Below are positions 11,801 through 31,920 of a stretch of DNA of 46,411 nucleotides, in pieces. Each line of letters opens with the position of its first letter. Positions within the stretch are counted from its first letter, which is position 1. The notes below the pieces were generated by a model. That model saw only the letters and a list, made by a program, of their open reading frames with translations. It made no database searches and was not told where the DNA came from. The translations under genes were made by a program, and so were the position numbers. The DNA lies in NCBI GenBank assembly GCA_017938215.1, contig JAGBBZ010000019.1:1-46411 (forward strand), in the 5' to 3' direction. This DNA comes from Eubacterium sp. (lineage in GTDB: Bacteria; Bacillota; Clostridia; Lachnospirales; Lachnospiraceae).

Positions 11801-12814
11801 ATGAAACGACATATTTTTAAAATGCTGCTGGTTGGAATGGTCATAAGCACAATGCTTGTGGGATGTGGGAAAGAGAAAAAAGACGATGTCAATGTGGAGA
11901 AAACTGAGGTTGGGGACAGTAATACGAACAAAACAGAAGAGGGCAAGGAAGAGATTCAATTTGAGCTGACTCAAGATGGAACATTGACCTTTTCAGGAAG
12001 TGGTATTCTGGATTATGATGATCGTGACATAGGTGATGACACTACCCAAAACAAAGTCAAAAGAATCGTTCTTTCAGAAGGGATAACAGGAACAGTAGAG
12101 GGGGCTTTTGCATGTTTTGATAATGTGGAAAGTATCCAATTACCAAATTCAATGACAAAGATTGGGAAAGATGCGTTTGATGGATGTGATTCTTTAAAAC
12201 ACATTGCATTTGGAGATAGCGTGACAGAAATTGGCGCAAGTGTATTTTCTTCCTGCGATTCATTAGAGAGTATTGTGATTCCGGATACAGTTACAACCAT
12301 AGGGAAGTATGCGTTCTCAAATTGCGAAAATCTGAAAAAAATTGTATTACCGAAATCCTTAAAATCATGGAAAAAGAATGCTACGAAATGGTGTCGGAAA
12401 CTAGATACCGTTGTCAATCGATCCAAGATTTCCTGTAAGCTAGATAATGACAAAGGCTATCGTATATGGAAAGTAAAAGGTAAAAAAGTGACGGCAGTTC
12501 CGAAAGGAAAGACGGCCAAAGCGTCTGGAATACAAGTTCCTATTACGTACAAGTTTCAAGGTGGAGTTCGAAGTGGCTATTTGCCAAGTTCCTATGAGTA
12601 TGGAAAGCGCGTGAAAGTACCTTTGAATGTGAAGAAGAAAGGATATAAAGCGTTGTCTTGGAATTGGCAAGGAAAAGATAGCTATTCTTTTGTGACCTAT
12701 GGAGTGGGTCCGAATGCGAAAAAAGTTATACTTAGACCGAATTGGTTCAAGTATAAGATAACAAATCAAGCGCCTGGGACTGCTCGTGTAAAAATCCGAT
12801 ATTACAATGGCTAG
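11801..12814 (+). CDS. BspA-like leucine-rich-repeat lipoprotein, cut short by in-frame TAG
   Basis: 337 residues to the TAG. A lipoprotein signal peptide ends in LVGCGK with Cys22 as the lipid-bearing residue, so the protein should sit on the outer face of the membrane. After an acidic linker come BspA-type LRR_5 repeats (residues ~85-200, pattern of IxxxAFxxCxxLxxIxLPxS). A basic region of ~80 residues and the first strand(s) of a fibronectin type III domain follow. The TAG at 12812-12814 falls inside that Fn3 domain, and the same frame continues for another 73 codons. ATG 11801 follows GAGAGGG. It is either a recent nonsense mutant or a readthrough case. Confidence 0.82.
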   Translation: MKRHIFKMLLVGMVISTMLVGCGKEKKDDVNVEKTEVGDSNTNKTEEGKEEIQFELTQDGTLTFSGSGILDYDDRDIGDDTTQNKVKRIVLSEGITGTVEGAFACFDNVESIQLPNSMTKIGKDAFDGCDSLKHIAFGDSVTEIGASVFSSCDSLESIVIPDTVTTIGKYAFSNCENLKKIVLPKSLKSWKKNATKWCRKLDTVVNRSKISCKLDNDKGYRIWKVKGKKVTAVPKGKTAKASGIQVPITYKFQGGVRSGYLPSSYEYGKRVKVPLNVKKKGYKALSWNWQGKDSYSFVTYGVGPNAKKVILRPNWFKYKITNQAPGTARVKIRYYNG

Positions 12815-13036: not shown

Positions 13037-13139
13037 TAAAGGTAACTATTCAGGACCAATGTATGAAATCAATGAATCGTCGTGCTTGCACATAAGAAAT
13101 ATTGATTTCATACAGTAGGGTCTGAATAGTTACCTTTAT
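13037..13139. repeat. ~100 bp imperfect palindrome (MITE- or REP-like)
   Basis: Arms 13037-13073 and 13101-13139 are inverted copies. The outer 16 bases (13038-13053 with 13122-13137) pair perfectly, and an inner block GTATGAAATCAAT also pairs. The loop is about 27 bases. It starts 4 bases after the broken lipoprotein frame ends. No coding capacity. Confidence 0.75.
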
Positions 13140-13150
13140 AGACATTACAC

Positions 13151-13187
13151 AAGGCGAATCGTTGGAGGAAGCGGTTCGCCTTATTTT
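13151..13187 (+). terminator. Rho-independent terminator upstream of the DltABCD-like operon
   Basis: Arms 13151-13161 and 13171-13181 pair over 11 bp (one G-U) with a short loop, followed by ATTTTT. It isolates the surface-modification operon from upstream transcription. Confidence 0.85.
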
Positions 13188-13205: not shown

Positions 13206-13234
13206 TTGCGAATTTCTCCAATCCGTGCTATAAT
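13206..13234 (+). promoter_or_regulatory. promoter of the DltABCD-like operon
   Basis: TTGCGA at 13206-13211 and TATAAT at 13229-13234 are 17 bp apart, close to the sigma-A consensus. The first gene starts about 40 nt further on. No further strong promoter is seen down to 24341. Confidence 0.7.
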
Positions 13235-13275: not shown

Positions 13276-14817
13276 ATGCAGACCAACGTACTCGAATATT
13301 TGGAAGAAACCGTACAGCGATTGCCGGATAAAATGGCATTCGGTGACGATGAGATTCAACTTACATTTCAGGAAGTGTATGCCCGCTCCCGCCAGGTGGC
13401 AAGCGTTCTTGTGAAGAACCAGGCGGCAAAGGAGCCGGTTGTTGTATATATGAAAAAATCACCATGCACACTGACAGCGTTCTTTGGTGTGATTTATGCC
13501 GGATGCTTTTACGTGCCCATTGATGAAGAGATGCCGAGACGACGCATGGAGTTGATTTTGGAAAATACGCAGGCAAAATATATGATTTACGACGAGAGTA
13601 CCGCAGACAAGATTGAGGCACTTAATTTTCAGGGAACTACCATATCCTACGAGGAGTGTTTGCAAGAGGGAATCGATGAGGAAGCCATCGCACTGATTCG
13701 CGACAGTGCATTGGATACGGATCCGATTTATGTGCTATTTACGTCGGGTTCCACTGGCGTGCCAAAGGGCGTGGTGGGACATCATCGAGGCGTTATTGAT
13801 TACATCGAGAGTTTGTCCGATGTGTTAGGCTTTAACGAAGATACCGTATTTGGAAACCAGACGCCACTTTACTTGGATGCTTGCATGAAGGAAGTGTATC
13901 CGACCATGAAGTTCGGAGCATCTACTTGGCTCATTCCAAAAGAAAATTTCATGATACCAGTGAAGCTGGTGGAGTATCTAAATGACCATAAGATCAATAC
14001 CATTTGCTGGGTGGTATCGGCGTTGACCATGATATCGGCTTTTGGCACCTTTGATGTGGTGAAGCCGGAGCATTTGCACACCATTGCTTTTGGTAGCGAA
14101 GTGTTCCCGATCAAGCAGTTTAATTTGTGGAAAACCACATTGCCGGAAGCGAAGTTTACCAATCTGTACGGTCCGACAGAAGCCACCGGCATGAGCTGTT
14201 ATTATCATGCGGACCGATTGTTTGAAGAAAAAGAAGTGATTCCCATCGGCCAGCCATTTCACAATACGGAGATTTTTTTGCTGGATGAAAATGGCAAGGA
14301 AGCGGTGTATGGCGAACCGGGAGAGATTTGCATCAAAGGAACTTGCCTAACTCATGGGTATTACAATAACCCGGAGAAGACAGCGGAGGCATTTACTCAA
14401 AATCCATTGAATCCGTATTATCCGGAGAGGATTTACCGGACAGGAGATCTGGGGTACTATGGCGAAGGGGGACATTTGTATTTTGCTTCCCGTAAGGATT
14501 ACCAGATCAAACATATGGGACACCGCATCGAACTTGGTGAGATTGATGCCGATGTGGCGTTGATAGAAGGCGTGAAAACCTGCTGTTGCATTTACATAAA
14601 AGAAAATAGCAAAATCGTTCTGTTTTACGTGGGAGACGTGGACAAGAAGGAATTGACGGTGGCGCTGAAGGAGCGGTTGCCACGGTACATGATACCAAAT
14701 GCCATTGTGCAGTTGGAGACATTGCCACTGACCACCAATGGAAAAATGGACCGATTGAAAATGCAGGAAATCTATATGGAACAGAAAAAAAGTAGAAGAA
14801 AGAGAGGAGAAAAATAA
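13276..14817 (+). CDS. DltA-like amino acid adenylation enzyme
   Basis: 513 residues, the length of DltA. It should activate an amino acid with ATP and load it onto the carrier protein encoded next. Seen in order: the P-loop SGSTGVPKG at ~157-165, YGPTEAT at 298-304, the YRTGD hinge segment near 395, and the C-terminal catalytic lysine at ~490 in TTNGKMDR. It is not a textbook DltA. The selectivity region is WVVSALTMIS near residue 245, without the cysteine that lies there in characterised D-alanine-specific DltA proteins. The amino acid is therefore uncertain, although D-alanine remains the default. ATG 13276 follows AAGGAGAG. The stop codon overlaps the next start by one base. Confidence 0.82.
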   Translation: MQTNVLEYLEETVQRLPDKMAFGDDEIQLTFQEVYARSRQVASVLVKNQAAKEPVVVYMKKSPCTLTAFFGVIYAGCFYVPIDEEMPRRRMELILENTQAKYMIYDESTADKIEALNFQGTTISYEECLQEGIDEEAIALIRDSALDTDPIYVLFTSGSTGVPKGVVGHHRGVIDYIESLSDVLGFNEDTVFGNQTPLYLDACMKEVYPTMKFGASTWLIPKENFMIPVKLVEYLNDHKINTICWVVSALTMISAFGTFDVVKPEHLHTIAFGSEVFPIKQFNLWKTTLPEAKFTNLYGPTEATGMSCYYHADRLFEEKEVIPIGQPFHNTEIFLLDENGKEAVYGEPGEICIKGTCLTHGYYNNPEKTAEAFTQNPLNPYYPERIYRTGDLGYYGEGGHLYFASRKDYQIKHMGHRIELGEIDADVALIEGVKTCCCIYIKENSKIVLFYVGDVDKKELTVALKERLPRYMIPNAIVQLETLPLTTNGKMDRLKMQEIYMEQKKSRRKRGEK

Positions 14818-15062
14818 TGGATTTTGAAGAAATCAAAGAAGGCATATTAGACATTTTGGAGGAGCTTCATGCCGATGTGGATTATGAAGCAGAAGAGGCG
14901 CTTGTGGATGACAAGATTTTGGATTCCTTCGACTTGGTGACGTTAGTAACAGAGCTTGGCGAGGAATTTGACGTGGAGATTACTGCTAAGGACTTTGTGG
15001 CAGAAAACTTTAATTCCGTAGAGTGTTTGTCAAATATGATCGCTCGTCTTATGGACGAATAA
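14817..15062 (+). CDS. DltC-like carrier protein
   Basis: 81 residues, acidic, with the phosphopantetheine attachment site Ser37 in ILDSFDLV. It would carry the activated amino acid as a thioester to the membrane enzyme. The ATG overlaps the adenylation gene's stop (TAATG), and GAGAGGAG lies just upstream, so the two are made together. The tail pattern (VEITAKDFVAENFNSVECL) is of the DltC/acyl-carrier type. A general acyl carrier protein is possible, but the context argues for a dedicated carrier. Confidence 0.82.
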   Translation: MDFEEIKEGILDILEELHADVDYEAEEALVDDKILDSFDLVTLVTELGEEFDVEITAKDFVAENFNSVECLSNMIARLMDE

Positions 15063-15077
15063 TTTGGAGGAACCGAC

Positions 15078-16679
15078 GTGTTTACATCATATGGATTTGT
15101 TGGCTTTTTGCTGGCGGTATTTGTGCTGTATTACATCTTGCCGAAGCGGTTTCAGTGGGGGCTATTGCTTATTGCAAACTTCGCCTTTTACTACACCGCA
15201 GGGAAGATTTATCCCCTGTTTATCCTTGCCACAGCGTTGACCGTGTATGTGGCGGGGCGCTTGATGGGACGACAGGATGAGGTGCTGGCAGCCTACAACG
15301 AAAAGATAAAAAATGGTGAGATGAAAAAGCCTTCCAGAGAGGAAAAGAAGGCATACAAGAAGCAAATCAACGCAAAGAAAAAGCGTGTGATGCTGCTTTG
15401 TCTCTTTTTCAATCTCGGGATTTTGGCGGTATTAAAATATACAAACTTTGTGATTCAAAATGTGAATTCTGTCATGGAGATGGCGGGAAAAGACGGATTT
15501 TCGTACATGGATCTGGTGTTGCCAATGGGAATTTCCTTCTACACCTTTCAGGCAGTGGGATACCTTTTGGATGTGTATTGGAACAAATGTGAGCCACAGA
15601 AAAATGTGTTCAAGTTTTTGCTGTTTGTTTCCTTTTTCCCGCAGTTGATTCAGGGACCGATCAGCCGTTACAGCGATTTGTCCAAGACGTTATACGAGAA
15701 ACATTCTTTTGACTGGAAGCAGGTTCGTTTTGGTTTGGAACGAATTCTGTGGGGATATTTTAAGAAGCTTGTGGTGGCGGACCGCATCAGTGCGGCGGTG
15801 GTTGCGTTGATGGGAGATCCGGAGTATTATACCGGTGCATTCGTTATCGTTGGAATGCTGTTTTACGCCATTCAGTTGTATGCAGACTTTACGGGAGGAA
15901 TCGATATCACCATCGGTATCGCGCAGGTCTTTGGCATTCGACTGGAAGAAAACTTTATCCGCCCATTTTTCTCGAAGAACATTGCTGAGTATTGGCGCAG
16001 ATGGCACATTACTATGGGAACGTGGTTCCGTGATTATGTATTTTACCCATTCAGCATCAGTCGGCCATTGAAAAATATCACCACCTTTTGTAAAAAGCAT
16101 TTTGGCATGACGGTGGCGCGCCGGGCAGCCGTTTACATATCTTCAGTCATCGTTTGGTTGGCAACGGGTATTTGGCATGGCGCCGCATGGAACTTCGTGG
16201 CATGGGGATTGACAAACGGTGTTATTATATTGATTTCCGAGGAATTGACACCGCTGTATGAACGATTCCACAAGGCATTTCCAACGTTGACAGCCAGTAC
16301 CTTTTATCGGGGATTTCAGGTGATTCGTACCTTTTCCTTGATGTGCTGCATCCGTCTCTTTGATAACTATGGAAGTGTGCGCATTACGTGCAAGCAATTT
16401 GTTCGCATGTTTACCCGATTTGATCTCAGTGCCGTGACGAAGCAGGAGTTTCTGGATCTGGGACTTGGGATGAAAGATTATGCCATCGTGGCAATGGGTG
16501 TATTGCTGATGTTTGTCGTGAGTATGTGGGGCAGAAATGGCAGTGTTCGGGAGAAGATATCCCGCAAACCATACATCATCCGATATGGCATTTATGTGTT
16601 GCTGTTTTTTGCGGTATTGCTTCTCGGCAATTACGGTGTAGGATTTGACGCCCAGCAATTTATATATAATCAGTTTTAA
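15078..16679 (+). CDS. MBOAT family O-acyltransferase (DltB/AlgI-like)
   Basis: 533 residues with about ten membrane segments. MBOAT marks are YWRRWHIT (RRWH at 307-310) followed by WFRDYVFYP, and the active-site His367 in TGIWHGAAWN. It would take the acyl or aminoacyl group from the carrier protein and pass it across the membrane. The motifs and length are closer to AlgI/PatA-type MBOATs than to ~400-residue DltB, and a lysine-rich cytoplasmic insert lies at ~75-103. GTG 15078 is the start, 7 nt after GGAGG at 15066-15070. The gap to the carrier gene is 15 nt. Confidence 0.85.
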   Translation: MFTSYGFVGFLLAVFVLYYILPKRFQWGLLLIANFAFYYTAGKIYPLFILATALTVYVAGRLMGRQDEVLAAYNEKIKNGEMKKPSREEKKAYKKQINAKKKRVMLLCLFFNLGILAVLKYTNFVIQNVNSVMEMAGKDGFSYMDLVLPMGISFYTFQAVGYLLDVYWNKCEPQKNVFKFLLFVSFFPQLIQGPISRYSDLSKTLYEKHSFDWKQVRFGLERILWGYFKKLVVADRISAAVVALMGDPEYYTGAFVIVGMLFYAIQLYADFTGGIDITIGIAQVFGIRLEENFIRPFFSKNIAEYWRRWHITMGTWFRDYVFYPFSISRPLKNITTFCKKHFGMTVARRAAVYISSVIVWLATGIWHGAAWNFVAWGLTNGVIILISEELTPLYERFHKAFPTLTASTFYRGFQVIRTFSLMCCIRLFDNYGSVRITCKQFVRMFTRFDLSAVTKQEFLDLGLGMKDYAIVAMGVLLMFVVSMWGRNGSVREKISRKPYIIRYGIYVLLFFAVLLLGNYGVGFDAQQFIYNQF

Positions 16680-16696
16680 AAGTAAGGTTGAGGTAT

Positions 16697-17875
16697 ATGA
16701 AACAAGTAAAAAGATGGATCACAGCTCTTTGTTCCGTGGCGGTGGTAGTGGTTTTGTTCTTTGGTTTACAACGCTTGGTGGAGCCAAAGTACACGGATAT
16801 TCTGGAAGGGAATTTTACAGCAGAGTATTATGAAGAAACCACAGATCACGATGTCATCATGGTAGGAGACTGTGAGGTTTATGAAAACTTTGATCCGATG
16901 TATCTGTGGAAGAACTATGGGATTACCAGTTACATAAGGGGAAATGCCCAGCAGCTGACGTGGCAGTCCTACTATATGTTGGAAGATACATTGCGAAAAG
17001 AGAAGCCGAAGGTGGTTCTTTACAACATTCAAGCGTTGACGCATGGGGAGCCACAGCGAGAAGAATACAATCGCATGACGTTGGATGGCATGGAGTGGTC
17101 CAAGACGAAGGTGGATGCCATACAGGCCTCCATGTGCGAAGGCGAAAAAATGTTGGACTATGTGTTTCCGTTGTTGCGATATCATCAGCGAATTTTGGAG
17201 CTGAATAAGGATGACTTCACCTATTATCGCACACCGAGAAAGGTGACACACAACGGATATTATATGCGAATTGACGTGCTTCCGGTAAGTGAGTCCGATG
17301 TGGCAGATCCAACTTGGCTTCTGGGGGAAGAGGAAGAACCGGAGCCGGAGGAAATCATTGACGATCCGTGGGGCGACATCGAAGGGGCGGACGAAGAACT
17401 GGGGGAGGATGCCCAGATTCCGCAATTGGCAAAGGACGAGGGTGAGCCATTTGGCCAGTATCCACTGGAATATTTGGATAAAATCCGTGAGCTCTGTGCG
17501 GAAAATGACATTCAGCTTATCCTGATCAAGGCACCGAGTTTGGCACCACAATGGTACGAGTCCGACAATGAACAGGTGGTGGCATATGCGAACAAGCATA
17601 ATTTGCCATATATCAATTTTTATGAATTGCTGGAGGAGACCGGCATCGATTATGAAACAGATACCTACGACGGTGGACTTCATATGAATTTGAATGGAGC
17701 CCAGAAGCTGTCTGAGTATATCGGAAACGTTTTGACGGAGCAGTATGGCGTGGCAGATCATCGAGACGATCCGAAACTGTCTGCGGTATACGCGGAAAAA
17801 CTGAAGTTTTACGAAGAGATGAAGAAAAAGCAACAGGAAGAACTGGACAAATACGGAGAAATTAGAAATTATTAG
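16697..17875 (+). CDS. SGNH/DltD-like exported membrane-anchored protein
   Basis: 392 residues with one N-terminal transmembrane anchor (~7-25) and an extracellular body. It occupies the DltD position and should act on the transferred group outside the cell. The SGNH block I reads VGDCEVYENF, with Cys59 where hydrolases and DltD carry the nucleophilic serine. The distal acid/histidine block is DGGLH with Asp325 and His329. An acidic insert lies at ~213-245 (runs of Glu/Asp). From memory, relatives in Lachnospiraceae also carry the GDCE variant, so it may be a family trait rather than damage. ATG 16697 is favoured over TTG 16688 by codon and spacing from AAGG. Confidence 0.75.
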   Translation: MKQVKRWITALCSVAVVVVLFFGLQRLVEPKYTDILEGNFTAEYYEETTDHDVIMVGDCEVYENFDPMYLWKNYGITSYIRGNAQQLTWQSYYMLEDTLRKEKPKVVLYNIQALTHGEPQREEYNRMTLDGMEWSKTKVDAIQASMCEGEKMLDYVFPLLRYHQRILELNKDDFTYYRTPRKVTHNGYYMRIDVLPVSESDVADPTWLLGEEEEPEPEEIIDDPWGDIEGADEELGEDAQIPQLAKDEGEPFGQYPLEYLDKIRELCAENDIQLILIKAPSLAPQWYESDNEQVVAYANKHNLPYINFYELLEETGIDYETDTYDGGLHMNLNGAQKLSEYIGNVLTEQYGVADHRDDPKLSAVYAEKLKFYEEMKKKQQEELDKYGEIRNY

Positions 17876-17887
17876 GAGGAATTTGAA

Positions 17888-18382
17888 ATGAAGACAACAA
17901 AATTATGGAGAGCGATTGCAACAGCATTGACATTGGCACTTCTCGTATGTGCCACAGCGACACCGGCGGAAGCGGCAAAAGCAAAAGGTTATTTGTTTAA
18001 GTACAAAGGCGTGACGGTAGGCATGCACAGTCCTGCGAAGAAATTGTTGAAAAAGGCGGGAAAACCATTGGCGACAAAGGTGACAAAAAGCTGTGCATAC
18101 AAGGGAAAAGACCGTACCTACAAATACAAAGATTTTATTTTGTACACCTATTCTCACACAGATAAGGGCGCAGAGTACATCAATGGAATTACATTCTTGA
18201 CAAATAAGGTGTCTACCAAAGAAGGCATTAAGCAGGGAAGCACGGTAGCTCAGATGAATAAGAAATACAAAAAAGGAAAAGAGAAATTCGGTATCTATAC
18301 ATTTAAAAAAGCAAAATGTAAGTTGCAAATCGAGGTGACGGACGATGCAGTAACAAACATTCGATACGTTGGTACAAAGTAA
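17888..18382 (+). CDS. small secreted basic protein of unknown function
   Basis: 164 residues. A clear signal peptide ends near AEAAKA (residues 1-~30). The mature part is lysine-rich (GVTVGMHSPAKKLLKKAGKP) with no recognised catalytic motif and two cysteines that could form a disulfide. Its repeating GxT/KKAGKP style suggests a beta-rich fold. AGGAGG precedes ATG 17888, 12 nt after the SGNH gene, so it is part of the surface-modification operon and probably acts at the cell wall. I do not recognise the family. Confidence 0.75.
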   Translation: MKTTKLWRAIATALTLALLVCATATPAEAAKAKGYLFKYKGVTVGMHSPAKKLLKKAGKPLATKVTKSCAYKGKDRTYKYKDFILYTYSHTDKGAEYINGITFLTNKVSTKEGIKQGSTVAQMNKKYKKGKEKFGIYTFKKAKCKLQIEVTDDAVTNIRYVGTK

Positions 18383-18407
18383 TTCGCGAATAGGAAGAAG
18401 GTAGAGT

Positions 18408-19652
18408 ATGCGAAAAGGAATCATTGCGGCAGCTCTCGTGGTGCTGAGTCTGGCAGTGGGGTGCCAGACGGAGCCGGCAGAGGCAGCGAAAAAGTCAAAG
18501 AAAAACAAACCGAATCTGACGGTGTCTTACTCAAAAGTTAAGCTTGTAAATGTGAAAATGCAAGTAGGAGAAAATGGCTCGATGAAATATCAGGCAGCAG
18601 TGAAAAATACGGCGACCAAAGGAACCATTAAAAAGATCGAGTATACATATTCGATTCAGGTGAAGCAGTTGGCGCCGGCGGTGGAAACCGGGCAAGTGAC
18701 GGAGACGCTGGTGCCAAAGACAGTGAAGCTTGTGGTGAAAAATATCAAGCCTGGAAAGACGTCGAAGGTTGTGAATTGTGAGGGGGATGCCTCGGGAAAT
18801 GTGGCGGCGATGAAGCTTCAGAAGGTTTGTCTTTATGCCGGAACCGGGCTCTATACCTATGATGCCACCACGGGAAAAGGAACTGTGAGTTGGGGGACAA
18901 AGGACAAAAAAGCACCGGTTATTAGCGGTCTGGTTGGGAAAAAGAGTTATTATCAAGGCGATATTCGCTGGACGTGCTATACCGATAGGAAGAAAAACTA
19001 TGACTTTGATCAATTTGTCACAGTAACCGATAACCGAGATAGCAAGGTAAAGTTAAGTGTTGATACCAGTAAGATTAACTGGGAAAAAGAAGGTATTTAC
19101 AAGGTTTATTATTCTGCTACGGACAAAGCCGGAAATACAGCATCTGCCTGGGCGAAGGTGCAAGTGCTACAGCCTGGGACTGCGGAGCAGGTGGCAGATA
19201 GTGTGCTGAAAAGCATCATCGGCAAGGGGTGGTCCGATGAGAAAAAAGCAAGGGCCATTTACAAATATGTGCGGGGACGTTGTTCCTATGTGGATAATGG
19301 AACTCACGGAGATTGGAGAAAGTCGGCATTAAATGGTATTCGTTATCAGTCTGGGGATTGTTTTACCTATTACTCGGTGGCACGTATTCTTTTGTCAAGA
19401 GCGGGAGTGCCCAATATTATGGTGACTCGATATCCATCTTACGAAGGCTACCGCCATTGGTGGAGTCTTGTGTATGTGAGAGGTGGTTGGTATCATCTGG
19501 ATACGACACCACGTAAGCAAAAAGAGGACTTTTGTCTGTTGACGGACAAGCAGGTGTGGGGATTTTCCACCAGCACCTTCCGATTCCAGACTGGGCGATA
19601 TATCAAGCGAGCGACGAAGAAAATTAGTCCAAGTCCGAAACCAAAGAAATAA
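18408..19652 (+). CDS. exported transglutaminase-like protein with Ig-like domains
   Basis: 414 residues. The signal peptide could be cleaved after AEA (~26) or, less likely, as a lipoprotein at Cys19 (AVGCQ). Residues ~35-150 form a beta domain of FxLYD-like character. Residues ~168-254 form a DUF5011/HYR-like Ig domain (KAPVISGL to TASAWAKVQV). Residues ~260-385 form a transglutaminase-like core with the triad Cys318 (SGDCFTYY), His350 (RHWWSLV) and Asp365 (HLDTT). Such exported papain-fold domains cut or cross-link peptides or cell-wall components. It sits 25 nt after the small secreted protein in the DltABCD-like operon. Confidence 0.85.
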   Translation: MRKGIIAAALVVLSLAVGCQTEPAEAAKKSKKNKPNLTVSYSKVKLVNVKMQVGENGSMKYQAAVKNTATKGTIKKIEYTYSIQVKQLAPAVETGQVTETLVPKTVKLVVKNIKPGKTSKVVNCEGDASGNVAAMKLQKVCLYAGTGLYTYDATTGKGTVSWGTKDKKAPVISGLVGKKSYYQGDIRWTCYTDRKKNYDFDQFVTVTDNRDSKVKLSVDTSKINWEKEGIYKVYYSATDKAGNTASAWAKVQVLQPGTAEQVADSVLKSIIGKGWSDEKKARAIYKYVRGRCSYVDNGTHGDWRKSALNGIRYQSGDCFTYYSVARILLSRAGVPNIMVTRYPSYEGYRHWWSLVYVRGGWYHLDTTPRKQKEDFCLLTDKQVWGFSTSTFRFQTGRYIKRATKKISPSPKPKK

Positions 19653-19667
19653 GGGATGGAGATTGTG

Positions 19668-20384
19668 ATGAAAACGATAGGAATAATTGGTGGTCTGGGA
19701 CCCATGGCTACAGTGCAATATTTGGAAATGGTTACGAAGATGACGGATGTAACGAGGGATCAAGAGCATCCGAGACTTTTGTTGACGAGCATCCCCGATA
19801 CCCCAGACCGAACGGAATTTATCCTCGGAAAAAGTAATGAGAGTCCATTGCCGCATATGGTACGGGCAGGGCGACAGCTGGCAGAAATGGGAGCGGATTT
19901 TGTCACAATTCCATGTGTGACCGCACAGTATTTTTATGAAGAACTGGTGGACGCTTTGCCGGTGCCGGTGATTTCTCTTTGTGGAAACGTGGCAGAGGAT
20001 GTGGCGGCAAAAGGAATTCGGAAAGTGGGGCTTCTTGCTACCAGTGGAACCATAGAAAGTAAGGTGCTGGAGCAGGAGTTTGCCAAAGCAGGTGTGGAGG
20101 CTATGGTACCGGAAGCGGCAGAGCAGGAACTTGTCATGACAGTGATTTACGATCAGATAAAGAAAGGGACTTCTGTGAATTGGAATATGGTGAATCAGGT
20201 TCGCGATTCATTGTTGGACCGTGGGGCGGAAAAATTAATCCTCGGTTGTACGGAATTGTCTCTTTTGAAGAAAGAAAAGGAATTGGGTTCACAGTATGTG
20301 GATGTGTTGGAAGTGCTAGCGCAGAAAACAGTGCTTGCCAGTGGGGCGGCATTGCTGAAGGAGTATGTTGAAATCGTCAGATAA
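19668..20384 (+). CDS. aspartate/glutamate racemase family protein
   Basis: 238 residues. The family opening IGIIGGLGPMAT and both catalytic cysteines are present: Cys83 in TIPCVTA and Cys194 in LGCTEL. The usual asparagine after the first cysteine (CNTA) is valine here, which may alter substrate or rate. The enzymes invert Asp, Glu or related amino acids without cofactor. ATG 19668 has GGAG 6 nt upstream; an ATG at 19656 is too close to its site. The gene lies 15 nt after the transglutaminase-like gene and 13 nt before the LuxR-type regulator. A racemase inside a DltABCD-like operon could supply a D-amino acid for activation, which is inference. Confidence 0.85.
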   Translation: MKTIGIIGGLGPMATVQYLEMVTKMTDVTRDQEHPRLLLTSIPDTPDRTEFILGKSNESPLPHMVRAGRQLAEMGADFVTIPCVTAQYFYEELVDALPVPVISLCGNVAEDVAAKGIRKVGLLATSGTIESKVLEQEFAKAGVEAMVPEAAEQELVMTVIYDQIKKGTSVNWNMVNQVRDSLLDRGAEKLILGCTELSLLKKEKELGSQYVDVLEVLAQKTVLASGAALLKEYVEIVR

Positions 20385-20397
20385 TGGAGGGATTGCA

Positions 20398-22743
20398 TTG
20401 GAAGAAACATATATACGACCACAGGCGGCTTACAAAAAAATGAAGGCTGCTCAAAGTATTTTTCGGACGGTTTACATTTATGGGTTGTCCGGGTGCGGCA
20501 AGACAGCATTTGTTAGGGAGTATCTGGGGCGTAGAAAGCACTTGTATTTTTCGACTGATGAAATTGTGGGGGAAGAACTGGAGATTCCACTTGGCGACAA
20601 AAAAACAATTGTAGTGATTGATGAGATTCAATTTGCTCAGATTGATACGCTTCGGGAAAAAATCAAGCAATTGACGGAAAGAACAGACATCTGGCTGATT
20701 TTGATTGGAAGAAGTCCGGTTCCAAATTGGTTGATGTCAGCATATTTGAAGCAAGTTTTCATGATTATTGATGAAAATGATTTGTATTTTACAGAGGAAA
20801 TGCTTCTTGACTATTTGGAGTGTTGGAATCTTCGGATTGATGCGGAGATGGTGACGACGATTTTGCGCCAAACCTATGGAAATGCATTGGCATTGCGAAT
20901 GATTGCAGTGGAACTTGCGCGAGGAGTAACATGCACGACTGAGAATTTGACCTATTTGCGATATGCCTTTTGGGATTATATGGATGAGCATGTGTTTGAA
21001 CAATGGGATATGGAGCTTAGCGAATTTGTGATGCAAATCTCTATTGTGGATCGTTTTGATCTTCATTTGGCAGAAATGATCAGTGGTCAGAGTGATGTGG
21101 AACATTTGTTACATCAAGTAAAAGAGATTGGGAATTTTCTCAGTGAACGAGATGGAATGTTTGAACTTTTTGTGGATGTGCGACTCAGCATGAGACGACG
21201 TCTTGTGAAATGTTATACCAAAGAAAAAAGAAACAATCTATATTATAATGCAGGTCTCTATTATGAAATGTCTGCCATGGTTCCGGAGGCATTGGAAATG
21301 TACGAGATGTGCGGCGATCGGAATCGAATTTCCGGTTTGTTGAGTACCAATGCAAGAAAGAATCCTGCAATTGGTCACTTTTATCAGCTGAAAAGATACT
21401 ATCTGTCACTGCCGGAAGAGACTATTATGGAAAATGTGGAACTGATGGTGGGAATGTGTATGTTGCAATCTTTACTTTTGAATCCGGAGGAAAGTGAGCG
21501 GTGGTATGACTGTTTGAGAGAATATGAAGAACGAGAGACGGGAAGCCGTAAGCGTTCTGCTCGCAGTTGGATTGCGTATCTGGATATCGCGGTTCCTCAT
21601 CGTGGCAGTCAGAATTTGAAAGATATCATTAAAAATACGAGTAGACTTTTGCTAAATCGGAAGGTGATTTTGCCAGAGTTTTCTGTAACTAGTAATATGC
21701 CATCTCTTATTAATGGTGGAAAGGATTTTTGTGAATGGACCAAGCGGGATAAGGAGTTGGCAGATAGCATCGGGAAAGCGACAGAGGCTGTTGTGGGAAG
21801 ATTTGGTAAAGGGCTTGTAGACCTTGCATTGGCGGAAAGTTATTTGGAAAAAGGAATGAATAATTATGAGGTGTCGGTTCTTGCGGGAAGGGGAAGGATG
21901 CAAGCAGAGTCTGGCGGTAAAATGGAACTGTGTTTTGTGGGAGTTCACATTTTGGCATGGCTTCACACGTTGACATCTCATGTGTCGGAAGCCCGGGAAT
22001 TGGTGGATAATTTTTACCAGAAAGCAGAGAAGGAAGAGCAGTACCAGTTATTAAGCAATATACGCACATTGCAATTCCGTCTGGCTCTATATGGTGACAA
22101 CAATGATATGATGGAGCAGTGGGGGTTGGAAGCGCCGGAAGAAGAGCAGGATTTCTTTGTGTTGGATCGTTACCGCTACTTGGCGAAAGTACGACTGTAC
22201 TTGCAGCAAGGGAAATATGAGAAGGCAATTACGCTTTTGCATCGTGTACAATATTATGCGGACGTTATGAAACGTACTTATATTCAGATGGAATGTTTGC
22301 TTTTGCTGGCGATTGCAGAGTTCCGAATTGGAAATGAGTTGTGGAAAGAAATGATGCAAAAATGTATCACTTGGGCGGAGGAGTATCACTTCGTAAGACT
22401 GATTTCTCGAGAAGGGGCAGCGGTTTTGGAACTCTTGAAAAAAGAGGAGTGGGAAGTGACAAATAAAGAATTCTGGAAGCAGGTATTAGCGGAGACAGAA
22501 CAAATGGCACTGGCTTATCCGTCTTATCTAAAGGCATGGGAAGAAAGCGAAGGTTCCATAAAAGGAAATGCCTTGAAAATTCTACGATTGCAGGCGGACG
22601 GTATGTCCAATGCTGAAATTGCGGAGTACCTTAGCATTACAGAAAGTACGGTAAAATACCACAGCCGAAGAACGTATAAAGCTTTGGGCGTCAGCAAAAA
22701 AATGGATGCTGTGCTGGAAGCGAAAAAAAGGAAATTAATATAG
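20398..22743 (+). CDS. large ATPase-LuxR transcriptional regulator (MalT/LAL-like)
   Basis: 781 residues. A P-loop GLSGCGKT at 29-36 and a Walker-B-like VVIDEIQF near residue 81 form a STAND/AAA-type ATPase. A long helical, TPR-like region follows (~300-690). A C-terminal LuxR helix-turn-helix occupies the last ~60 residues (ILRLQADGMSNAEIAEYLSI then ESTVKYH). It should bind DNA in response to a ligand held by the ATPase and repeat region. TTG 20398 is proposed as start, 6 nt after GGAGGG at 20386-20391. The upstream ATG at 20365 lies inside the racemase gene with no ribosome site. It is probably co-transcribed with the surface-modification genes and may regulate them. Confidence 0.85.
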   Translation: MEETYIRPQAAYKKMKAAQSIFRTVYIYGLSGCGKTAFVREYLGRRKHLYFSTDEIVGEELEIPLGDKKTIVVIDEIQFAQIDTLREKIKQLTERTDIWLILIGRSPVPNWLMSAYLKQVFMIIDENDLYFTEEMLLDYLECWNLRIDAEMVTTILRQTYGNALALRMIAVELARGVTCTTENLTYLRYAFWDYMDEHVFEQWDMELSEFVMQISIVDRFDLHLAEMISGQSDVEHLLHQVKEIGNFLSERDGMFELFVDVRLSMRRRLVKCYTKEKRNNLYYNAGLYYEMSAMVPEALEMYEMCGDRNRISGLLSTNARKNPAIGHFYQLKRYYLSLPEETIMENVELMVGMCMLQSLLLNPEESERWYDCLREYEERETGSRKRSARSWIAYLDIAVPHRGSQNLKDIIKNTSRLLLNRKVILPEFSVTSNMPSLINGGKDFCEWTKRDKELADSIGKATEAVVGRFGKGLVDLALAESYLEKGMNNYEVSVLAGRGRMQAESGGKMELCFVGVHILAWLHTLTSHVSEARELVDNFYQKAEKEEQYQLLSNIRTLQFRLALYGDNNDMMEQWGLEAPEEEQDFFVLDRYRYLAKVRLYLQQGKYEKAITLLHRVQYYADVMKRTYIQMECLLLLAIAEFRIGNELWKEMMQKCITWAEEYHFVRLISREGAAVLELLKKEEWEVTNKEFWKQVLAETEQMALAYPSYLKAWEESEGSIKGNALKILRLQADGMSNAEIAEYLSITESTVKYHSRRTYKALGVSKKMDAVLEAKKRKLI

Positions 22744-22756
22744 GAGGAAATGCGAC

Positions 22757-23122
22757 ATGGGAAGTACAATTTTTGTTGTGGATGATGATGAAATGATTTT
22801 GCGCCAGGCCGAATTTATTCTGGGGCGTGAAGGATTTGTAGTAGAAAAATATGAATCTGGTCCACGATGTTTGATTGCCCTAAAAGAGAAAAAACCAGAT
22901 CTGATTCTTTTAGACATCGAGATGATTCCAATGGACGGAATCGCTACCCTATGCGAAATCCGAGGAATGCAATCTGTGGCAGATGTTCCTGTTATGTTTA
23001 TTACTTCTTCTCTGGATTCTGAGCGGGAAAAAGACGCCAGTGGTTTGGGAGCGGTAGATTATGTTATTAAGCCGTTCATTCCAAAAGATTTGGTGGATCG
23101 TGTGAAAAATATAGTGACATAG
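22757..23122 (+). CDS. stand-alone response regulator receiver protein (CheY-like)
   Basis: 121 residues, a single receiver domain without output domain. The acidic pocket is at Asp10/Asp11, the phospho-acceptor at Asp53 (LLDIEM), the switch Thr/Ser at ~83-85 and Lys105 in VIKPF. AGGAGG precedes ATG 22757, 13 nt after the LuxR-type gene. No histidine kinase lies in the window, so its kinase and target must be elsewhere, or it may act on the adjacent ATPase-LuxR protein. Confidence 0.88.
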   Translation: MGSTIFVVDDDEMILRQAEFILGREGFVVEKYESGPRCLIALKEKKPDLILLDIEMIPMDGIATLCEIRGMQSVADVPVMFITSSLDSEREKDASGLGAVDYVIKPFIPKDLVDRVKNIVT

Positions 23123-23183
23123 AAAATTCATGTATAAAATTCGTTCTTTTTGCGCAAAATGGTGGCAGAAAGGACGATTTTTT

Positions 23184-24341
23184 ATGTTGGTAATAAATGG
23201 AATGATATGGACCATGGCAGGGAAACCTGTGGAACATGGATATGTACGCTGGAATGAAGGGAAAATTACAGAGATCGGAAACATGAAGGAGTTGGGAAGC
23301 GAGCCGTTTGAGAGCGAACGAGTACTAGATGCTCATGGTGGCTGGGTAATGCCAGGGCTGATTGATGCTCATTGTCATGTGGGAATTGCGGAAGAAAAAT
23401 GGGGAACGATTGGTGACGATTGCAACGAAATGACAACGCCTATTACGCCGCATCTTCGCGGTTTGGATGGAATAAATCCAATGGATCCGGCGTTTCACGA
23501 TGCCATTATGGCGGGCGTGACGTCTCTGATGACGGGGCCCGGAAGCTCGAACCCCGTAGGTGGTCAGTCGGTCTTTCTGAAAGTGCAAGGACGATGTGTG
23601 GATAACATGATTGTGAAGGCGCCTGCAGCGATGAAGGTGGCATTTGGCGAAAATCCCAAAGTGAATTATGGAAATAAAGATGCCATGCCGGGAACTCGTA
23701 TGGCGGTTGCTGCTATGATTCGGGAACAATTGTACCAAGCGTGTCAGTATCAGGAAGATAAGTCTGTGGGAAAACTAGAAAAAACGGATTTTCGTATGGA
23801 ATGCTGGCTTCCGGTGTTGCGAAAGAAAATTCCATTGAAGGCTCATGCGCATCGAGCCGATGACATTTTAACTGCGATTCGTATTGCGAAAGAGTTTGAT
23901 GTGAGGTTAACGTTAGATCATTGTACGGAAGGGCATTTGATCGCAGAAGAGATTTTGCGCTCGGGATTTCCGGCTATCGTGGGACCGGATCTTACCGCTC
24001 GGTCCAAATTGGAAGTACAAAACATGAGTTTCAAGACAGCGGGAGTTTTGGCAAAAGCGGGTGTGAAGGTGGCAGTCATGACAGATCATCCGGTATCTTT
24101 GATTCGGTACCTTCCGCTTTGTGCCGGACTTTGTGTGAAACAAGGATTGCCGATGGAGGAAGGCCTGAAAGCGATTACTATCCATGCGGCGGAAATATGT
24201 GGTGTCGCTGACCGTGTGGGTTCCTTAGAGGTTGGCAAAGATGCCGATATTGCCGTGTTTACGGGGAATCCGATGGAAACCTTTACGAGAACTCTCGCTA
24301 CCGTTGTGGATGGGGAGGTTGTGTATGAAGAGAAACTATGA
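23184..24341 (+). CDS. amidohydrolase family protein
   Basis: 385 residues, with the imidazolonepropionase/dihydroorotase-like layout: a small beta domain, then GLIDAHCHVG with metal ligands His63 and His65, further histidines in KAHAHR and LTLDHCTEGH, and an aspartate in MTDHP. It hydrolyses C-N bonds of a ring or amide using a metal. The substrate is unclear; an exact family such as adenine deaminase is not indicated. ATG 23184 follows AAAGGA with 9 nt spacing, 61 nt after the receiver gene. An earlier ATG at 23130 has no ribosome site. The stop codon falls in the left arm of the inverted repeat at 24336-24468. Confidence 0.82.
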   Translation: MLVINGMIWTMAGKPVEHGYVRWNEGKITEIGNMKELGSEPFESERVLDAHGGWVMPGLIDAHCHVGIAEEKWGTIGDDCNEMTTPITPHLRGLDGINPMDPAFHDAIMAGVTSLMTGPGSSNPVGGQSVFLKVQGRCVDNMIVKAPAAMKVAFGENPKVNYGNKDAMPGTRMAVAAMIREQLYQACQYQEDKSVGKLEKTDFRMECWLPVLRKKIPLKAHAHRADDILTAIRIAKEFDVRLTLDHCTEGHLIAEEILRSGFPAIVGPDLTARSKLEVQNMSFKTAGVLAKAGVKVAVMTDHPVSLIRYLPLCAGLCVKQGLPMEEGLKAITIHAAEICGVADRVGSLEVGKDADIAVFTGNPMETFTRTLATVVDGEVVYEEKL

Positions 24342-29976: not shown

Positions 29977-31920
29977 ATGAACGCACAGAGGAAGCGTAAA
30001 ACGGTATTTGTCCTGGCAGTGGTGTTGCTATGCTCTGTAGTCGGGATGATATCCGCTACTGCGAAGGCCGCAACCACATATCCGCATTCATATACCATTC
30101 GCAATTTTTTGAGTGATTATCAGTATGTTGTGAAGGGCGATATGACATTGGAGAACCATACAGTGGGTGGCGTCGTGGCTGGTGGCAATGTGAGTTTGTC
30201 TACATTTGGTGAAGCGATGGTGATGCCGAGCTACGGGAAGAATGTTACAAAAGTTGTAGATTTAAACGCCACGAAGTATGATGGGATTCCGGCAGGGTAT
30301 GCAAGTAATACATTTTACTATCAGACCATGGTGGATGGAGCAGTTCCTGGATATTTGACGGGCAGCTTTGTGCAGGGAGAATTTTTGAAGGTTAATGAGG
30401 CTTTTGACTCCTTGTACAGTGAATCGGAACAGATGGCTTTGACAGCGACGGGGACTCCGGAAAAAATCGGAAATACCATTACGGTGGATTTTTCCAAGGC
30501 GGACAACTACAAGTTGGATGCTTCCTTGCTTACGAAAGGTGGAAATGATGTGGTCAATATCATTGGCATCCATTCCGCAGACGATTTTACTAGAAAGGAA
30601 TATCGCATTTCTTTTACTGGAATCAATGACAGCACACTATTTTTTGACAATATGTGGACCTCTAGTAGTTCTTACGACTACTTTGTACGCTTCACTTTGA
30701 ATGGGAATCCGTTTGAACAAGTAATGAAGCAGATTAGCACAGAGAATTATGCAGGTGGTCAGTACGTAAACGCAGGATTGAAGTTTATCATCAACCTTCC
30801 GGATGCAAAGAGATTGACAACCAATGGACTTAGCGGACATCTTGTGGCACCGAGAGCGGATTTGACCATAGATGGCGGAGCCTTGGAGGGCGGTATTATT
30901 GCAGAACGTGTAAATGCCAATGTGCAGGCACATTTCTATCCGTATTATCCGGTAGGCAGTCCGAGGGACAATACGCCAGCAGATAAAAGTTTGCAGATTA
31001 TTGAGACGAATGTGGATAAGACGGAAGTGCTTGTAAACCAGACGGCGATCGTGGATACCATAAAGGATCAGGATGGTAATTTGGTAATTGTAAACATGGA
31101 AAATGCAGATTTTCAATGGCAGGTGAAGGACCCTGTAACAGGGCAATGGAGTGATATTCCAGGGGCGGTGACACCAGAGTTTGTGCCAGGAGCTGATTTG
31201 GATGGCAGAGAAATTCGGTGTCGAGTAACAGGGAAAAATGGTTACACCGGAGTGGTGTATGACAACAGCGTGGTTTGTTCATTTTCTTCCAAAGGTGGAA
31301 TTTCGAAAAGTGGAAAAAATTCAACGTCAAAAAATAATAACAAATCTGTTGAATTAAAGATTCCAACGATTGTAATGAAAAAGGTCATGGGGCCGAAGAT
31401 GAAGTTCAAAATCAAATTGCTGAACTTAAAGGGCGCGAAAGTTTCTTGCGAATCGACGAATACAAAAATCGCTACGATTAGCAAGAAGGGGCTTATGAAG
31501 GCGAAGAAAAAGACTGGAAAGTGTAGGCTGACGATTAATGTAACAAAAGGAAAGCATCGAATTCAGTACCGAGTAAATCTCGTGGTTCGGAAGAATTGCA
31601 AAAAGAACTACAGTCTTTACAAGTACAAGACAAATTACAAACATCCAAGCGTGAGCCTTTATAAACTCGTGCCAAAGAATAAAACCTACAAAATCAAATT
31701 AAAGCACGTGGATAAGAAAGCAAAGGTTGTATACAAGAGCAGCAACAAAAAAGTTGCCACAGTTAACAAAAACGGAAAAGTAATACCAAAGAGAAATGGA
31801 CGTGCCGATGTAACGATTACAGTTGCACAAAATGGCGTAAAATATCGTTATTTTGTAGTGGTGCGAGTGACGGAAACCGATAAAGAATCCAATACATCTT
31901 ACCTAAAGGTGATCAAATAA
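29977..31920 (+). CDS. secreted choice-of-anchor-A-like protein with BIG2 domains
   Basis: 647 residues. The signal peptide ends near AKAATT (~32). Residues ~38-335 resemble the choice-of-anchor A (CAA) domain: a beta-helix-like region with GGVVAGGNVSL, FGEAMVMPSYG, and LSGHLVAPRADLTI with a GGALEGGIIA turn. Residues ~345-435 form an Ig-like module (NADFQWQVKD, IRCRVTGKNGYTGVV). The C-terminal ~190 residues hold two lysine-rich BIG2 domains starting at IPTIVMKKVMGPKMKFK and ending SNTSYLKVIK. No LPXTG or hydrophobic tail is present, so the basic BIG2 pair may be the wall-binding part. AAAGGAGAG precedes ATG 29977. It is paralogous to the next gene and simpler in its centre. Confidence 0.75.
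   Translation: MNAQRKRKTVFVLAVVLLCSVVGMISATAKAATTYPHSYTIRNFLSDYQYVVKGDMTLENHTVGGVVAGGNVSLSTFGEAMVMPSYGKNVTKVVDLNATKYDGIPAGYASNTFYYQTMVDGAVPGYLTGSFVQGEFLKVNEAFDSLYSESEQMALTATGTPEKIGNTITVDFSKADNYKLDASLLTKGGNDVVNIIGIHSADDFTRKEYRISFTGINDSTLFFDNMWTSSSSYDYFVRFTLNGNPFEQVMKQISTENYAGGQYVNAGLKFIINLPDAKRLTTNGLSGHLVAPRADLTIDGGALEGGIIAERVNANVQAHFYPYYPVGSPRDNTPADKSLQIIETNVDKTEVLVNQTAIVDTIKDQDGNLVIVNMENADFQWQVKDPVTGQWSDIPGAVTPEFVPGADLDGREIRCRVTGKNGYTGVVYDNSVVCSFSSKGGISKSGKNSTSKNNNKSVELKIPTIVMKKVMGPKMKFKIKLLNLKGAKVSCESTNTKIATISKKGLMKAKKKTGKCRLTINVTKGKHRIQYRVNLVVRKNCKKNYSLYKYKTNYKHPSVSLYKLVPKNKTYKIKLKHVDKKAKVVYKSSNKKVATVNKNGKVIPKRNGRADVTITVAQNGVKYRYFVVVRVTETDKESNTSYLKVIK

Follow-up and report, generated by a model that had tools for sequence, protein, structure and literature searches.

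A cluster of ten co-directional genes occupies positions 13,276 to 24,341 of contig JAGBBZ010000019.1 from Eubacterium sp. (Lachnospiraceae; assembly GCA_017938215.1), whose full 46,411 nucleotides are here called the window, and only the first seven of these genes belong to a conserved unit. They encode a stand-alone adenylation enzyme (A), an acyl or aminoacyl carrier protein (ACP), an MBOAT acyltransferase, an SGNH-type acyltransferase with a cysteine nucleophile, a small secreted basic protein, an exported Ig-like and transglutaminase-like enzyme (TG) and an enzyme of the aspartate racemase family (RAC). The cluster is akin to the system that adds D-alanine to teichoic acids, but it is no DltABCD operon. 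We give about an even chance to the reading that it is a carrier-dependent MBOAT-SGNH system exporting an acidic amino acid, for which D-aspartate is the likeliest candidate and D-glutamate a less likely one.

A conserved unit of seven genes

Linkage was counted with purpose-built profile models in three sets of loci. The MBOAT-selected set (L036-L080) was drawn from the best 80 of 566 candidates from genome contigs and holds 43 full-family relatives, and the remaining 37 of those 80 loci (L077, L079 and L081-L115), which have other MBOATs at no more than 36% identity, are the controls. The class set comprises 50 loci (L173-L222) found by the SGNH profile and the genus set 15 loci (L128-L142), many of them cut by contig ends, which gives 108 related loci. 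The three sets overlap, L036 and L128 as well as L063 and L205 carrying identical SGNH tails, so that the rows are not all independent, and the counts are lowered because some loci are cut by contig ends. The median length of the control loci is 14 kb, versus 18-20 kb in the related sets and 15 kb in the genus set.

Among the 43 MBOAT-selected loci, A is present in 39, ACP in 40, SGNH in 41, the small protein and TG in 35 each and RAC in 25. The 50 class loci contain A in 38 cases, ACP in 39, MBOAT in 42, the small protein in 41, TG in 45 and RAC in 28, and the 15 genus loci contain A in 12, ACP and SGNH in 13 each, the small protein in 10, TG in 8 and RAC in 2. The controls have A in three loci, ACP in one and SGNH in three, and the small protein, TG and RAC in none of 37. 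This recurrence indicates that the coupling of genes five to seven to the Dlt-like core, which the first-pass annotation had proposed from the window, is real. The same annotation also placed the last three genes in the pathway, and here it is not supported: the LuxR-like regulator and the amidohydrolase are found in none of the 108 related loci (and in none of the 37 controls), and receiver matches, which concern a very common domain, occur in six, so that genes eight to ten are local neighbours. The question it had raised, whether homologs downstream of the SGNH gene are usually unlinked from the adenylation genes, is thus answered differently for the two groups, since genes five to seven are linked and genes eight to ten are not. 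A single pathway of all ten genes under its own control, which the short gaps and common strand in the window would favour, was rejected as very improbable because the regulator and amidohydrolase genes do not recur; in addition, in L038, the closest of the relatives that carry the full seven, RAC is followed by a leucyl-tRNA synthetase gene.

The commonest order elsewhere in Clostridia is TG-RAC-A-ACP-MBOAT-SGNH-small protein, and the window and L038 have A-ACP-MBOAT-SGNH-small protein-TG-RAC instead. Flanking genes vary between loci, and the conserved set recurs in unrelated surroundings. The 483 gaps between neighbouring cluster genes in 93 related loci have a median of 15 nt, with 391 of 60 nt or less. 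A sample of 393 genomes of the class, from 219 genera, yielded the SGNH protein in 51 genomes and 24 genera, numbers that include the window's genome and a serine-bearing outgroup (L222). Four of the 299 genomes in a sample of the phylum pass 1e-40 with the SGNH profile, namely the window's own genome, one of the same family at full score and two at 155 and 144 bits. A record titled Anaerolineaceae (L040) holds a typical clostridial cluster and is probably a mis-binned contig or a case of transfer.

Conserved residues and the probable substrate

The SGNH protein has only a weak Pfam match (24.7, under the limit of 32.9), and a solved-structure search with its profile gave an anti-sigma factor as best match (E 0.045). 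Block I reads GDCE. Among 102 aligned rows, 100 have Cys as the nucleophile, all keep His329 and 101 keep Asp325. Serine is found at this position in lower-scoring homologous SGNH proteins (L077, L079 and L222 in the column count, L224 and L225 in printed alignments). One of the two exceptions, L139, looks like a decaying copy, as its MBOAT has also lost His367 and the C-terminal tail and its locus is without A, ACP, TG and small protein in the stretch read. The other, L222, has Ser; its locus carries A, ACP, MBOAT and SGNH, and neither TG nor the small protein was found there. With the serine of the distant relatives, this suggests that the Ser-to-Cys change occurs where TG and the small protein are present. 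Thioesters, as in subtiligase chemistry, favour amines as acceptors. Laboratory Ser-to-Cys swaps, according to the available text of PMC6642262, generally break hydrolases unless further residues change, which makes a natural switch across a clade notable.

The active-site histidines of the MBOAT are conserved (His310 in 96 of 96 rows, His367 in 95 of 96), and a C-terminal tail of the FxYxxF type, in a few cases with one extra residue, is present on 92 of the 94 MBOATs above 500 bits, the exceptions being L139 and L076, which is truncated by a contig end. The attachment residue of ACP, Ser37, is kept in 94 of 94 rows. With its histidines and its shuttle tail the MBOAT falls into the broad MBOAT-SGNH acyl-transfer class; the partner keeps the His and Asp of the Ser-His-Asp triad of that class and has Cys as nucleophile, a thiol variant. 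The system is a variant of MBOAT-SGNH export systems, not a separate category.

Cys69 of the small protein is invariant (87/87 rows). A pattern match finds a lipobox-like Cys in 27 of 34 rows, the window's own protein not being among them, and most homologs look like lipoproteins. The best solved-structure match of its profile has E 0.37, and most of the matches cover the signal-peptide part only. The Cys-His-Asp triad of TG is intact in all 86 rows with data (one row is gapped), which together with the PF01841 match places TG in the transglutaminase-like superfamily. Five genus members, all without RAC, add a YkuD L,D-transpeptidase with a PG_binding_4 domain beside TG or inside the cluster (5 of 110 loci, none of the 37 controls), an addition that hints at peptidoglycan. 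One open reading frame, L065:11593-13260, runs from SGNH into the small protein and was rejected as a functional fusion; it contains, by eye, a signal-peptide-like stretch and a lipobox, and because a fusion would place the small protein on the wrong side, a lost stop or a sequence error is likelier.

The adenylation pocket was mapped through an alignment to LgrA and GrsA numbering, and a search aimed at a DltA alignment returned LgrA again. The pocket has Asp-Ala-Lys at GrsA positions 235-236-239 (D201, A202 and K205). Of 85 rows, 82 have Lys at position 205, one has Arg and two have Leu, and the three residues occur together in 81, which argues for one substrate class in the bulk of the family. 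Eight further adenylation proteins from the genus, taken from among the high scorers and not comprising all of them, lack the Lys, the low-scoring acyl-CoA-ligase-like L002 and L003 being left uncounted. Lys at GrsA position 239 is a mark of Glu-activating nonribosomal peptide synthetase domains, and the pocket Lys thus suggests an acidic substrate. The two rows with Leu belong to L137 and L138, whose clusters are similar apart from a different A, with a DNS-L pocket, that follows SGNH; it looks as though one amino-acid module had replaced another.

The best solved relative of RAC is the aspartate racemase 1jfl (184 bits). Cys87, Cys198, Arg52 and Lys169 of RAC are kept in all 55 rows and correspond to residues 82, 194, 48 and 164 of 1jfl, and with both catalytic cysteines and a TIGR00035 score over the cut-off RAC belongs to the Asp/Glu racemase family. 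Of the 39 genomes of the genus, RAC was found in five, and exactly those five have a pocket of the GS..GM type. In the eight other genus members whose A could be read, the pocket is of another type and RAC is absent; one of them, G029, has its A and a TG on another contig, and its pocket fits the same pattern. Most of the genus members without RAC have an FCGE pocket, presumably DltA-like. A comparison of 48 genomes with a readable A gene (RAC limit 150 bits; L222 left out and G029 not included) gives RAC in 34 of the 38 with a GS..GM pocket versus 2 of the 10 with other pockets. The pocket type follows the presence of RAC, with exceptions, as a pattern and not as a passed test. In L208 an asparagine synthase gene (TIGR01536, 443 over 267) stands between SGNH and RAC.

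The cluster in its local context

The ten open reading frames of the types first described are all present on the + strand and tightly packed (Table 1), successive genes being separated by an overlap, 15, 17, 12, 25 and 3 nt, an overlap, 13 and 61 nt. The interval between TG and RAC is 15 nt if RAC starts at its second ATG, and the last one is 7 nt with the upstream ATG of the amidohydrolase.

Table 1. Features of the cluster in the window, and YkuD genes of related loci
Feature	Position	Strand	Remarks
Terminator-like hairpin	13151..13182	+	13 pairs, then ATTTTT; may end an upstream transcript; consensus match only
Sigma-70-like promoter, extended -10	13206..13234	+	TTGCGA-17-TATAAT, TG before -10, 10/12 matches; consensus match only
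A, stand-alone adenylation enzyme	13276..14817	+	TIGR01733 328.8 over 317.4; AMP-binding; pocket D201 A202 K205
ACP, acyl/aminoacyl carrier protein	14817..15062	+	PP-binding; attachment Ser37
MBOAT acyltransferase	15078..16679	+	C-terminal acyl-shuttle motif FIYNQF; His310, His367
SGNH-type acyltransferase, Cys nucleophile	16697 (or 16688)..17875	+	GDC59E, Asp325, His329
Small secreted basic protein	17888..18382	+	No family matched; invariant Cys69
TG, exported Ig-like and transglutaminase-like enzyme	18408..19652	+	PF01841 1.8e-11 (44.7 over 23), PF16403 1.2e-6; Cys318, His350, Asp365
RAC, aspartate-racemase-family enzyme	19656..20384	+	Asp_Glu_race; TIGR00035 217.4 over 93.1; Cys87, Cys198, Arg52, Lys169
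ATPase/MalT-like LuxR regulator	20365..22743	+	Co-directional; outside the conserved unit
Single-domain receiver protein	22757..23122	+	Outside the conserved unit
Amidohydrolase	23184 (open also from 23130)..24341	+	Outside the conserved unit
YkuD gene	L129:6191-7672		Pfam
YkuD gene	L130:13482-14975		Pfam
YkuD gene	L131:6468-7952		By similarity
YkuD gene	L132:8198-9736		Pfam
YkuD gene	L138:3590-5077		Pfam

The promoter that the first reading had placed before the cluster is there as a consensus match, downstream of the hairpin, both lying before the first gene. The absence of internal terminators is likewise borne out, as no terminator-like site lies between the ten genes on the + strand, and three (15097, 19448 and 19956) lie inside coding sequence. 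Taken as a whole, the scan is without power because its totals match expectation (33 promoter-like sites versus 30.5 expected, 10 terminator-like sites versus 10.7), and the best evidence for a unit is the conservation of linkage, not the signal scan. Rfam matching and a tRNA scan gave no hits. The source is a metagenome-assembled genome of 1.84 Mb that is 68% complete, so that absence of a gene from it means little.

A palindromic dispersed repeat lies directly upstream of the cluster (window 13037-13138), with 13 further matching places in the same incomplete genome, and looks like a small non-coding mobile repeat. Further upstream (11801-12814) there is a BspA-type leucine-rich-repeat gene with a lipobox-like start by eye, and 29977-31920 and 32106-36728 encode two large proteins that have both ice-binding-like adhesive domains and Ig-like ones.

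Proposed pathway, alternatives and known systems

From the linkage of the genes, the intact motifs, the Ser-to-Cys switch and the conservation of pocket and racemase, we infer a route in which the amino acid, the order of hand-over, the acceptor, the amide bond and the parts played by TG and the small protein would be as follows. RAC would convert L-Asp to D-Asp in the cytosol, and A would adenylate D-Asp and load it on the phosphopantetheine of Ser37 of ACP. The MBOAT would carry it across the membrane and attach it to the tyrosine of the FIYNQF motif in its own C-terminal tail. From the tail it would pass to the SGNH protein, as a thioester on Cys59 where the Dlt and Pat systems have a serine ester. 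A surface acceptor outside the cell would receive D-Asp from Cys59, and the small Cys-bearing protein and TG may act at or after this final transfer. As a thioester and TG both favour amines, an amide or isopeptide product, on a peptidoglycan peptide or a surface protein, is likelier than a teichoic acid ester. A bolder form of this proposal, which is tentative and rather unlikely, sees in the cluster clostridial machinery by which the envelope is built or cross-linked with D-Asp outside the membrane, the SGNH Cys acting as an aminoacyl ligase from thioester to amine and TG with the Cys lipoprotein completing or anchoring the bond. D-Asp would then reach surface amide bonds without an ATP-grasp ligase or tRNA, and an SGNH transferase would have undergone a natural serine-to-cysteine switch.

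Several observations weigh against the export of D-aspartate as set out here. Literature support for reading Lys205 as a contact of an acidic side chain was not found, and that reading rests on the codes of nonribosomal peptide synthetases (the Glu code with Lys at GrsA position 239). RAC passes the limit of the cysteate racemase CuyB model NF052483 (190) by a narrow margin (191.6 in the window, 197.1 in L048 and 193.1 in L208, with 169.2 in L134). In a quick tree the link between pocket and RAC has about four to five independent changes, of which about two are informative and concordant, and these are too few to give it significance. The exceptions to the pattern run both ways: L207, L210 and L211 (no match at E 1e-20) and L183 (a partial match of 107 bits) have the RAC-type pocket and are counted as RAC-less, and L206 (RAC in the locus) and L173 (208 bits, elsewhere in the genome) have another pocket and RAC. 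At the level of the locus, the same pocket (or DAP for DAC) is found with no RAC inside the locus, the rest of the genome not being searched, in nine MBOAT-selected loci: L037, L042, L044, L045, L054, L059, L060, L069 and L070. Asparagine-synthase-like genes occur in 1 of 110 related loci and near 2 of the 37 control MBOATs. Finally, seven loci of genus g60 in family f39 (L212, L213, L214, L215, L216, L218 and L219) carry SGNH-Cys, the small protein and TG (as many as six genes), together with a GT2 glycosyltransferase in all seven and a GT87 in L212. A, ACP and MBOAT do not adjoin them, and so the core may do something wider.

These seven genomes are the chief ground for the view, which we think unlikely though worth keeping in mind, that SGNH-Cys, the small protein and TG form a core for processing or cross-linking surface proteins, the aminoacyl module being only one among several suppliers. 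Three genomes from the same family as the window, which have TG, MBOAT, SGNH and small protein and no A or ACP in the stretch read (the MBOAT of L217 is broken), fit this view, as do the five genus members with YkuD. It is countered by the six- or seven-gene set in most loci, joined by the short gaps given above, and by five other g60 genomes (L180, L185, L191, L194 and L206), where A, ACP, MBOAT and SGNH stand together, in four of them also with TG and the small protein; moreover, the seven g60 genomes have other MBOATs elsewhere, at best 35-37% identical, which could serve in trans. Comparable weight, still well short of an even chance, goes to a different amino acid (D-Glu, cysteate or an L-amino acid) or one that depends on the member, with the racemase serving one subgroup only. 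There are at least four pocket types, among them the Lys-free one of L137 and L138, many loci are without RAC, and RAC itself lies just over the cysteate-racemase limit; in addition, the L058 locus has no RAC and instead a fold-III PLP decarboxylase/racemase-like domain before TG in one open reading frame (L058:5086-8127, with a transmembrane-like stretch by eye and Ig and TG domains), which is plausible as a functional fusion. Against this stand the aspartate racemase 1jfl as best solved relative of RAC, and the Asp, Ala and Lys shared by nearly all pockets, which point to one substrate class for the bulk of the members.

An ordinary Dlt pathway, in which D-alanine is esterified to teichoic acid or another polymer and TG and the racemase are passengers, is improbable. 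It would account for the order of A, carrier, MBOAT and SGNH, which is that of Dlt, for matches of A to DltA models at 282-292 bits and for the FCGE pockets. All three enzymes, however, score below the curated NCBIfam cut-offs (DltA TIGR01734 281.6 under 559.85, DltB 160.4 under 375, DltC NF003464 41.1 under 68), and a DltA over its cut-off is found in none of the 39 genomes of the genus, with one in 2 of 14 control genomes. The gaps of at most 17 nt from A to SGNH leave no room for a DltX gene, and none is present there (the rest of the genome was not searched for one); the shuttle tail is on the MBOAT, Cys replaces Ser, the pocket has Lys, and TG and the small protein recur with the core and are absent from the controls. 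The description of the cluster as an extension of DltABCD is for these reasons inexact.

If the D-aspartate reading is true, some of the Clostridia use an acidic D-amino acid to decorate or cross-link their surface, and the route was not found in the open-licence literature. Searches of open-licence papers brought up no description of the gene set, of a Cys-type SGNH transferase or of the pocket rule, which does not show that the system is unpublished. The switch, near clade-wide and absent from the Ser relatives, offers a testable case of an ester-forming transferase possibly turned amide-forming. In Lactococcus lactis, the available part of PMC4155827 reports, the state of the D-Asp bridge alters sensitivity to lysozyme and nisin.

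One of the closest known systems is the RacD-AslA-AsnH pathway, which serves the D-Asp cross-bridge of lactic acid bacteria. Within the accessible text of PMC4155827, RacD of L. lactis makes D-Asp, the asparagine synthase AsnH amidates it, and AslA is a cytoplasmic ATP-grasp ligase that acts on precursors. The RacD-AslA-AsnH pathway and the present cluster both have an aspartate racemase in one operon with a predicted or known D-Asp-using enzyme, and an asparagine synthase occurs there and, here, in L208 only; the present system differs by adenylation and by a transfer predicted outside the membrane. RAC shares with the Asp/Glu racemase family (1jfl) the TIGR00035 score, both cysteines and the equivalents of Arg48 and Lys164, and differs in having mostly PC[VIM]T for PCNT, its activity being predicted.

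The likeness to DltABCD(X) lies in the stand-alone adenylation enzyme, the carrier protein, the MBOAT with two active-site histidines (His289 and His336 in DltB, according to the portion of PMC11035591 at hand) and the SGNH partner. The differences are the scores under the DltA, DltB and DltC cut-offs, the tail fused to the MBOAT with no DltX in the cluster, the Cys for Ser in SGNH, the Lys pocket, and the linked racemase, TG and small Cys protein. In the available sections of PMC12148441, the acyl group is carried by PatA's own tail and in Dlt by DltX; Dlt combines a carrier-protein donor with a separate tail, and the systems with the tail on the MBOAT have no carrier protein. PatA/PatB and AlgI-type O-acetyltransferases, in the same source, use an acyl-CoA donor, unlike the carrier and adenylation enzyme found here. 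Since the present system has both of these and an MBOAT-fused tail, it combines the layouts of the two known types.

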